DNA of 34,772 nucleotides from Alphaproteobacteria bacterium (GTDB lineage Bacteria > Pseudomonadota > Alphaproteobacteria > Reyranellales > Reyranellaceae). A program made the position numbers and the translations under genes. This document shows positions 1 through 8,998 of this stretch, piece after piece. The notes below the pieces were generated by a model that was given only the letters and a program-made list of their open reading frames with translations, was not told the origin of the DNA and ran no database searches. The stretch lies in the NCBI GenBank assembly GCA_016870115.1, contig VGCH01000029.1, positions 1-34,772 on the forward strand, written 5' to 3'. Every line of letters begins with the position of its first letter. The first letter of the stretch is position 1.

Positions 1-63
1 AAGTGATAGACAAGAATGATAGACTAGTCAATAACATATTGATTAATATAGATAAGTTACACA
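1..63. mobile_element. AT-rich edge of a putative integrated element
   Basis: These 63 bases are only about 25% G+C (16 of 63), against about two thirds in the rest of the window. They end exactly where recognisable tRNA sequence begins. They contain a perfect 6-bp inverted repeat with a 3-nt spacer (TCAATA-ACA-TATTGA, 28-42), which could be a recombinase or protein binding site. No gene can be supported here. I infer that this is the terminal sequence of an island or prophage inserted in the tRNA gene, whose body lies left of the window. Confidence 0.5.
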
Positions 64-108
64 CTCATAACCTGAAGGTCGTAGGTTCAAATCCTGCCCC
101 CGCAACCA
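64..108 (+). tRNA. 3' half of initiator tRNA-fMet(CAU), truncated; probable att site
   Basis: The sequence gives the anticodon loop CTCATAA (64-70, anticodon CAT at 66-68), the 3' anticodon strand CCTGA (71-75), the T arm (81-97, GTAGG / CCTGC around TTCAAAT), the 3' acceptor strand CCCCGCA (98-104), A73 and an encoded CCA (106-108). The acceptor strand ending in A and followed by ACCA fits the unpaired 1-72 position of bacterial initiator tRNA. The 5' half is missing: ACACA at 59-63 cannot pair with CCTGA where TCAGG would be expected. Tyrosine recombinases commonly use the anticodon-loop-to-CCA segment as attB, leaving such 3' duplicates at one end of the insert. As it stands this cannot fold into a tRNA, so an intact copy should exist elsewhere. 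Confidence 0.8.
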
Positions 109-111
109 ATC

Positions 112-137
112 AAGCCGCCCTCAGGGGCGGCTTTTTT
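112..137 (+). terminator. Rho-independent terminator after tRNA-fMet fragment
   Basis: There is a nine-base-pair stem (112-120 with 125-133), AAGCCGCCC pairing with GGGCGGCTT, closed by the four-base loop TCAG. A run of six T begins within the 3' arm (132-137). It sits three bases after the CCA end of the tRNA fragment, as expected for a tRNA transcript terminator. It would also shield the downstream genes from transcription coming out of the putative insert. Confidence 0.9.
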
Positions 138-7819: not shown

Positions 7820-8998
7820 TCAGACCGCGAGCGAGGCGATCGCCGCGTCGACGCCACCAGGCGCAAAAGGCACGGACGCGGTCTTCATCGCGAGTTCCAC
7901 GGTGGCCAGCGCGCCGAGCAGCATCGGTTCGTTCAAGTCGCCCAGATGTCCGATACGGAACGCCTTGCCCATCAGCGGGCCGAGCCCACCGCCCAAAGAC
8001 AGGTTGTAGCGGTCGATCGCGACCTTGCGCAGCGGATCGGAGCTTTGGCCGGCGGGCATCTGGATGGCTGTCACCGAGTTGGAGTAGCGATCGGCATTGA
8101 GGCAGAGCAGTTGCGGGCCGGTGCCATCGGCGCCCCAGGCACGCACCGCCGCGCGGGTCGCCTCGCCGAGCCGTGCGTGGCGGGCGAACACGGCGTCCAA
8201 GCCTTCTTCCTCGATCAGGCGCAGAGACTCTTGAAGACCGAAGAACATATGCACCGGCGCCGTGCCGATGAAGCGCTGCGGCTTGCGCGCGGTCATCAGG
8301 TGCCAGTTCCAGTAGTGCTTGGGCAGTTTTGCAGTCCGCGCGATCTCCATCGCCTTGTCGCTGACGCCGGTGAAGCCCACCCCGGTTGGCAGCATCAGAC
8401 CCTTCTGACTGCCGCCCACCGCGACGTCGACGCCCCAGGCGTCCATGCGAAAATCCATACTGCCCAGCGACGAGATCGTGTCGGCCAACAGCAGTGCCGG
8501 GTGCCGGGTCTCGTCGAGCGCGCGCCGTACTTCGGTTAGCGGCAGCACCATGCCGGTGGCGGTCTCGTTGTGGACGGTCAGCACGGCCTTGAACTCGTGC
8601 GCCTTGTCGGCGGCCAACCGCTCGCGCAGTCGGGCCATGTCGGCGCCCTGGCGCCAGTCCGCCGGCAGGGTCTCCACGACCAGCCCCATGTGCTGCGCCA
8701 TCTCGGTCCAGCTCACGGAGAAGTAGCCGGACTCGACAATCAGGACCTTGTCGCCCGGCGAGAAGAGGTTGGCGAGCGACGCTTCCCACGAGCCGTGGCC
8801 TGTCGAGGAGTAGAAGAACAGGTGCGCATCGGTCTTGAGGAGGCGCTTCACGCCGGCATGGCAGGCGTGCTGGATCGCGAGGAATTCCTCCGACATGAAG
8901 TCCAGCACCGGCCGGTCCATGGCCCGGAGCACCCGGTCCGGGATGTTGGTGGGGCCCGGATTCATGAAGAACTGGCGGCCGCGCGGCTTGGCGTTCAC
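7820..8998 (-). CDS. Class V pyridoxal-phosphate aminotransferase (alanine/serine-glyoxylate type)
   Basis: This 392-residue fold-type-I PLP enzyme is close to alanine-glyoxylate and serine-glyoxylate aminotransferases. It shows FMNPGPTNIP at the N-terminus, the phosphate loop YSSTGHGSWEASL (about 63-75), VHNETATG (142-149), the cofactor Asp173 in LLADTISSLGS and the Schiff-base Lys199 in VGGSQKGLMLPTG. The GTG start at 8998 follows AGGGGAGAG by eight bases; the frame continues upstream but would cross the divergent gene. Relatives transfer an amino group from Ala, Ser, Asp or taurine to glyoxylate or pyruvate. It is divergent, across 103 bp, from a class III aminotransferase, so two amino-transfer enzymes may share control. 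Confidence 0.9.
   Translation of the reverse strand: MNAKPRGRQFFMNPGPTNIPDRVLRAMDRPVLDFMSEEFLAIQHACHAGVKRLLKTDAHLFFYSSTGHGSWEASLANLFSPGDKVLIVESGYFSVSWTEMAQHMGLVVETLPADWRQGADMARLRERLAADKAHEFKAVLTVHNETATGMVLPLTEVRRALDETRHPALLLADTISSLGSMDFRMDAWGVDVAVGGSQKGLMLPTGVGFTGVSDKAMEIARTAKLPKHYWNWHLMTARKPQRFIGTAPVHMFFGLQESLRLIEEEGLDAVFARHARLGEATRAAVRAWGADGTGPQLLCLNADRYSNSVTAIQMPAGQSSDPLRKVAIDRYNLSLGGGLGPLMGKAFRIGHLGDLNEPMLLGALATVELAMKTASVPFAPGGVDAAIASLAV

Follow-up and report, generated by a model that had tools for sequence, protein, structure and literature searches.

What placed the 3' half of an initiator tRNA gene directly against AT-rich DNA at the very start of a contig? The window analysed here, 34,772 nucleotides long, is contig C29, taken from its base 1, of a partly masked draft genome (59 contigs, 3.56 Mb) of an alphaproteobacterium of the family Reyranellaceae (G000). 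Positions 64-108 carry the tRNA from the anticodon loop to CCA (CTCATAA...CCGCAACCA); the G+C content is 25% in the 63 bases before them and 64-71% per kb to the right of the fragment. As ARAGORN called no tRNA anywhere in the window, 64-108 represents a half gene, and because the window begins at contig base 1, the upstream DNA is absent from C29. An earlier note, made from the letters alone, had described a half tRNA-fMet fused to AT-rich DNA, a perfect short palindrome near the junction, an intact terminator at 112-137 and GC-rich chromosome to the right, and our measurements bear out this description: the palindrome (TCAATA-ACA-TATTGA, 28-42) is a perfect inverted repeat with 6-bp arms, and bases 106-145 fold into a stable hairpin of -20.7 kcal/mol (z -4.9), which 0 of 200 shuffled sequences equalled. 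Taken together with the evidence presented below, window positions 1-109 are very probably the attR of an integrative element that entered the sole tRNA-fMet gene found in the assembly. The features of this reading are as follows.

1-63, no strand: right end of the integrated element (element side of attR), low in G+C; the same stretch lies beside a tRNA-fMet 3' half on contig C83 of the G007 genome
4-24, forward: two direct TGATAGAC repeats at 4-11 and 17-24 with a spacing of 13 bp, by sequence motif probable arm-type sites of an integrase
32-44, reverse: IHF-like site AATCAATATGTTA, overlapping the 28-42 palindrome; exact fit to the IHF consensus WATCARNNNNTTR
64-109, forward: attachment core, the displaced initiator tRNA 3' half (64-108 through CCA, plus one base); 46-bp identity to contig C27
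64-81, forward: probable crossover interval CTCATAACCTGAAGGTCG, of which 64-70 is the 7-nt anticodon loop; 18 bp common to the attL and attR cores of G007
112-137, forward: original host terminator of the tRNA gene, a hairpin; the most similar one seen stands behind an intact tRNA-fMet (L111, G017)
194-982, forward: host gene for an enoyl-CoA hydratase/isomerase, start codon uncertain (PF00378, E 3.2e-55)
GTGATAGACACTGATAGACAAG: left-end repeat of the element

The two junctions and their reconstruction

The core (64-109) was identical over 46 of 46 bp to C27:35529-35574 of the same genome, with an E value (2.2e-17) that excludes chance. This was the sole other core match at E<=0.001 in the genome as searched, in which C59 was wholly and the C27 rRNA operon partly masked, so that additional copies may lie in these masked parts. 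The C27 copy belongs to an intact tRNA-Met(cat) (C27:35497-35573) located directly behind the 23S and 5S rRNA genes, and the last 1,564 bases of C27, just past this tRNA, have 50% G+C (48-52% per 500-base window); the second 45-base copy that the earlier note expected in an intact tRNA-fMet was thus found, identical and with low-G+C DNA directly after it. Reading the split tRNA as an intron-containing gene is not supported, the intact copy being free of introns and the sequence upstream of 64 containing no 5' half. When the host flanks were joined in silico, ARAGORN called a tRNA-Met(cat) of 77 bases, followed by the terminator of the window. An element-borne terminator, a 14-pair hairpin of -24.9 kcal/mol (z -5.0), lies at L033:10577-10609, in a 12-kb stretch of C27. 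The arrangement that defines a tRNA-targeted integrative element in the Islander sense was therefore found here on two separate contigs: an intact tRNA at one end and an identical 3' fragment at the other, element DNA 3' of the intact copy and 5' of the fragment, and an uninterrupted site restored on joining the flanks. The inner sides of both contigs are element-like, and the contigs are unjoined in the assembly; we infer that C27 and C29 flank one and the same insertion. Furthermore, TGATAGAC occurs four times in the window and the C27 stretch (window 4 and 17; L033:10638 and 10648, the latter pair with a spacing of 10 bp), all within the element ends, and TGATAGACAAGA occurs twice genome-wide, once at each element end, against 0 occurrences of the reversed-pattern control.

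The middle of the element was sought in both ends of all 59 contigs, with small contigs covered whole and the others over up to 20 kb. Besides the right end of C27, the contig ends below 56% G+C were those of C16, C46, C49 and C52; the terminal 20-mers of the right end of C27 and the left end of C29 had no match in any other contig end of G000 (C59 masked). No integrase was found on the assembled parts of the element (1.56 kb and 63 bp). Five PF00589 genes were found in G000, none of them on C27 or C29, and the four frames read (C4, C5, C19 and C46) have 65-73% G+C. The one PF00239 gene, on C56 (65% G+C), matched its profile only from position 29; it is a large serine recombinase frame, seemingly without an N-terminus (C56:2092-3462; L076). 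As the assembly contains no PF03237 terminase, the only terminase family searched, the phage nature of the element is unproven. Separately, another tRNA 3' half is fused to AT-rich DNA at its anticodon-loop side on C46 (about 440-485; L066); it is likely a second attachment-site junction in G000, and no intact partner was present in the stretches of G000 fetched.

Next, relatives were examined for the same gene and for an empty site. Among 18 tRNA-fMet places chosen from a longer match list, 13 were intact, 3 were 3' halves and 2 were cut at a contig edge. The three halves (G035, G032 and G026) join other DNA at the same base as here, and several of the intact genes are followed by terminators resembling window 112-137, the best of them in G017. 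The enoyl-CoA hydratase gene has DNA homologues in 32 of 36 same-family genomes (77-84% identity); scanning of 19 relative loci revealed no tRNA in its flanks of roughly 1.5 kb. The empty site is accordingly a reconstruction rather than a syntenic uninterrupted relative, and the comparison of related genomes proposed by the earlier note yielded no such relative at these 19 loci.

To locate further copies of the element, its left end was compared with 61 genomes, G000 included. The only long match besides G000 itself was in G007, a metagenome-assembled genome (MAG) of the same family and another genus (91% identity over 278 bp); the next-best match, in G036 (E 6e-4), covered the terminator. In G007 the left end likewise stands directly behind an intact tRNA-fMet, and the end of its contig C83 carries TGATAGAC, TGGTAGAC, the same palindrome and the IHF-like site, fused to a tRNA-fMet 3' half, with host DNA beyond it that differs from that of G000. 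In the GTDB collection, the left-end pattern was present in two contigs, namely VGCZ01000064.1 (contig C64 of G007; Alphaproteobacteria bacterium MAG, isolate K_DeepCast_35m_m2_067) and a Clostridia contig (L292), whose 8 kb contain no tRNA-fMet core and which was rejected as a chance match; no IMG/VR contig carried the pattern. Since the G000 and G007 elements diverge past 278 bp, their ends are common and their cargo is variable. The attL and attR cores of G007 share exactly the 18 bp CTCATAACCTGAAGGTCG, followed by T-stem differences that leave both versions still able to pair. Because the two copies diverge after these 18 bp, the crossover probably falls within CTCATAACCTGAAGGTCG, which opens with the anticodon loop; mutation of one G007 copy after integration would also yield such a difference and is less likely. 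The insertion at the anticodon loop proposed by the earlier note in this way probably maps to the anticodon-loop/3'-stem segment.

Two explanations dispense with a mobile element or with the junction itself. Unequal recombination between rRNA-tRNA copies might have truncated the tRNA-fMet on C29, a rearrangement to which the position of the intact tRNA directly behind rRNA genes and the absence of a tRNA beside the right-hand gene of the window in the scanned relatives would both be suited. However, both junctions bear low-G+C ends with common TGATAGAC motifs, the pair of ends is found again in another genus among other neighbours, and the break lies at the anticodon loop, as in the three fMet halves of relatives, all of which makes such a rearrangement highly improbable. 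That the 63-bp AT-rich stub is an assembly or binning chimera is, in our estimate, less credible still: the draft assembly is broken on both sides and G007 is itself a MAG, yet the stub-core junction was independently reproduced in G007 and TGATAGAC pairs occur at both element ends.

We therefore return to the integrated element. A circular attP in which the core joins window 1-63 to the left end would recombine with attB, the strands being exchanged in or next to the anticodon loop. The 3' half and the terminator of the gene would then come from the element, the latter being the hairpin of C27 described above, so that the essential tRNA stays expressed, and the original 3' half and terminator of the host would be displaced to the far end, which is now the window. 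Such a mechanism belongs to a known kind, and the element itself was seen here only in G000 and the G007 MAG. One of its ends is delimited to the base and its attP is predicted, making it recoverable and testable, and the exchange of the 3' half and terminator of the only initiator tRNA gene found marks a fragile insertion place.

Architecture of the reconstructed attP and the probable type of recombinase

The reconstructed attP comprises, in order, a repeat pair, an IHF-like site, the core, the terminator and a second repeat pair. By sequence, this resembles the layout of lambda/P4-type attP sites, with two TGATAGAC copies on each side and IHF-like sites at window 32-44 and L033:10772. Within the window, TGATAGAC occurs twice, both times in 4-24, against 0.22 expected, and 3 of 100 shuffles reach two copies; the IHF consensus WATCARNNNNTTR has two matches against 0.20 expected, the other at 8738 in host DNA, and 278 of 20,000 shuffled stubs matched it by chance. 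The distances to the core were then compared with those in relatives. The left-end TGATAGAC pair begins 108 and 118 bp right of the core start; in G036, G032 and G026, pairs of a different motif, GTGGAAGCA, stand 109-121 bp to the right of the core start, and in G035 and G001 such pairs stand 140 and 151 bp to the left of the core. The G035 pair is adjoined by an integrase N-terminus with a P4-type Arm-DNA-bind_3 domain, and G001 has a tyrosine-integrase-like match (35% identity) in which the matched stretch contains a stop. The GTGGAAGCA pairs, which keep fixed distances to the tRNA-fMet core at the relative loci L285, L289, L290, L110 and L287, probably serve P4-type integrases as arm sites. 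The G032 core with its right-hand pair has DUF2924 and a serine recombinase on its left, and the left flank of G026 is the same (the recombinase itself was read in G032 only); adjoining a serine-recombinase element, the GTGGAAGCA pairs of G032 and G026 are no proof of a tyrosine enzyme.

On this architecture, we consider it likely that a lambda/P4-type tyrosine integrase moves the element, its gene being expected in the unassembled middle. The earlier note had named a tyrosine recombinase; the arm-type repeats, the IHF-like site and some of the relatives side with it, and a serine-like open reading frame (ORF) start in G007, together with a serine recombinase by the core in two relatives, speak against it. 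Under the opposing account, the element and site are the same, a gene just inside the right end encodes a serine-family integrase, and a directionality factor or accessory protein makes use of the TGATAGAC repeats. At the right end of G007, an ATG lies 99 bp from the core and points away from it, reading M-K-K-A-A-I-Y-A and then CG (Arg whatever the third base); in IMG/VR this N-terminal pattern occurs in a single contig, which codes for a PF00239 resolvase, and serine recombinase genes adjoin tRNA-fMet halves in other alphaproteobacterial sequences. Against this, the reading frame amounts to its first nine codons, in G007 and not in G000, and the PF00239 profile had no match in G007 and only the C56 gene in G000. 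Furthermore, the IHF-like sites fit a tyrosine intasome, as do the repeat pairs that relatives carry at the left-hand distance, and passages of a study of Sinorhizobium meliloti report tyrosine integrases for 88 tRNA-integrated sequences, one of which is also serine-recombinase-like (PMC11476347). A serine enzyme for this element is thus conceivable but unlikely. We hold as slightly more doubtful the fuller proposal that the fMet anticodon loop is a landing site of two unrelated recombinase superfamilies, that this element is moved by a serine enzyme and that the MKKAAIYAR gene is its integrase.

The association of serine recombinases with this tRNA was surveyed in its own right. The exact 45-bp core occurs in IMG/VR in seven stretches on six contigs. 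Its neighbours are tyrosine integrases in L103 and L105 and, in L107 (with DUF2924), L109 and, as a fragment, L105, large serine recombinases; no integrase was assigned in L106 and L108. The serine recombinase frames of L109 and L105 run into the tRNA on the opposite strand and finish there with the C-terminus VAGAGFEPTTFRL, the stop codon lying in the anticodon loop. A comparison of the L109 recombinase with 385 genomes of the class gave 37 matches in 30 genomes, and at 12 of the 30 loci (L308, L309, L311, L313, L316, L319, L320, L322, L324, L331, L332 and L333) the recombinase ends antisense in a 45-nt tRNA-fMet 3' half (89-98% identity) at the same base; ARAGORN called an intact tRNA-Met in 5 of these 12. 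At a further 15 loci the recombinase has no such end in a tRNA; at one of them, L330, the tRNA-fMet is intact and the recombinase next to it is divided between two frames. By positions set by hand, the recombinase end was also observed in the anticodon loop of another tRNA-Met (L318) and of a tRNA-Glu (L328), and in the T arm of a tRNA-Thr (L315).

In G413 (C1:4917248-4969689; L344-L347), two fMet cores lie 42.6 kb apart with one serine recombinase, and their surroundings contain two matches to tyrosine integrases (27-28% identity) and two partial matches to serine recombinases. Against a use of this tRNA by the serine elements, a second core for them was absent from 80 kb of G198, from 60 kb of G300 and from the 60 kb below the lower G413 core; in G409, another tRNA-like copy stands 30 kb away. 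Judged from where these genes end, large serine recombinases probably do use tRNA-fMet. Passages of the Islander paper describe only tyrosine recombinases as known to target tRNA and tmRNA genes (PMC4383910), and passages of a 2011 study of Dehalococcoides describe, at ssrA, a serine recombinase whose gene contains the repeat (PMC3146451); the side finding accordingly extends a known exception and establishes no new principle. Among the titles and abstract openings listed from the PMC literature, none described large serine recombinases in tRNA-fMet. If true, the serine-recombinase exception would reach tRNA genes across Alphaproteobacteria and provide new integrases with a predictable site.

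Cargo beside attL

A frame of 218 aa (L033:11030-11686) lies next to attL and reads toward it. It matched phrog_168 (E 8e-47) and, in the PDB, T4 gp44 (3u5z; E 3e-22), with residues 13-213 aligned to residues 13-218 of gp44 and about the last 100 residues missing; its identity to four phage homologues was 36, 37, 36 and 33%. The Walker A, Walker B and SR motifs are present, and the predicted product is a T4-gp44-like clamp-loader ATPase without its C-terminal third. An alignment search of IMG/VR gave at least 588 relatives, of which 80 were kept (32-38% identical), all with at least 305 residues from the start of the match, and the distant homologues (<60% identity) comprised 2325 phage records and 1 plasmid record, an archaeal replication factor C. 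A single-protein scan of IMG/VR found no relative of the clamp loader or of the adjoining ORF, the 385 class genomes returned only self for both (E<=1e-12 and E<=1e-6, respectively), and the 1.56-kb left end had no DNA match in phage or plasmid collections. The second ORF, behind the clamp loader, runs off the end of C27; it had no phage match, no Pfam or PHROG match at E<=0.001 (best PHROG, E 0.24) and no PADLOC match at 0.1. A defence role for the shortened clamp loader was rejected, the PADLOC matches being weak (IetA, E 0.0016 at best). T4-like phages are virulent, and a T4-type replication gene inside an integrated element is odd; it is the only T4-type gene seen on the incomplete element, and one clamp-loader gene is insufficient for calling a T4-like prophage.

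Comparison with known systems

The cargo gene shares an alignable region and motifs with T4 gp44 (phrog_168; PDB 3u5z), from which it differs by the absence of about 100 C-terminal residues and by its position in an integrated element. Regarding the site, the Roseobacter phages CRP-212 and CRP-235 (L303 and L304) contain unannotated stretches resembling the tRNA-fMet 3' half (95% over 42 and 89% over 46 bases, respectively); an annotated integrase gene lies 1.3 and 1.5 kb away, and the stretches are possible attP sites by sequence. Those are phage genomes, whereas the left end described here is without a phage DNA match. The DsiB islands at ssrA of Dehalococcoides, in which a serine recombinase gene embeds the repeat of the RNA gene, bear on the serine alternative and the side finding only, and their target is the T loop of tmRNA, in contrast to the anticodon loop of a tRNA here (passages of PMC3146451). 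Closer in kind are the P4-type (Arm-DNA-bind_3) elements at tRNA-fMet within the same family (G035 and probably G001), where the core starts at the same base, CTCATAACC, and paired 9-bp repeats stand near it; they differ in their repeat motif, GTGGAAGCA, and have no long DNA match to this left end.

The nearest general model is given by the Islander islands with an anticodon site ('A') and tyrosine integrases, which likewise have an intact tRNA at one end and a 3' fragment at the other, with the gene restored; according to passages of the Islander paper (PMC4383910), a 3' fragment is present in 3760 islands and the site is centred on the anticodon in 2083. What distinguishes the present element from them is its target, the only initiator tRNA found in G000, and the terminator, which is supplied by the element.
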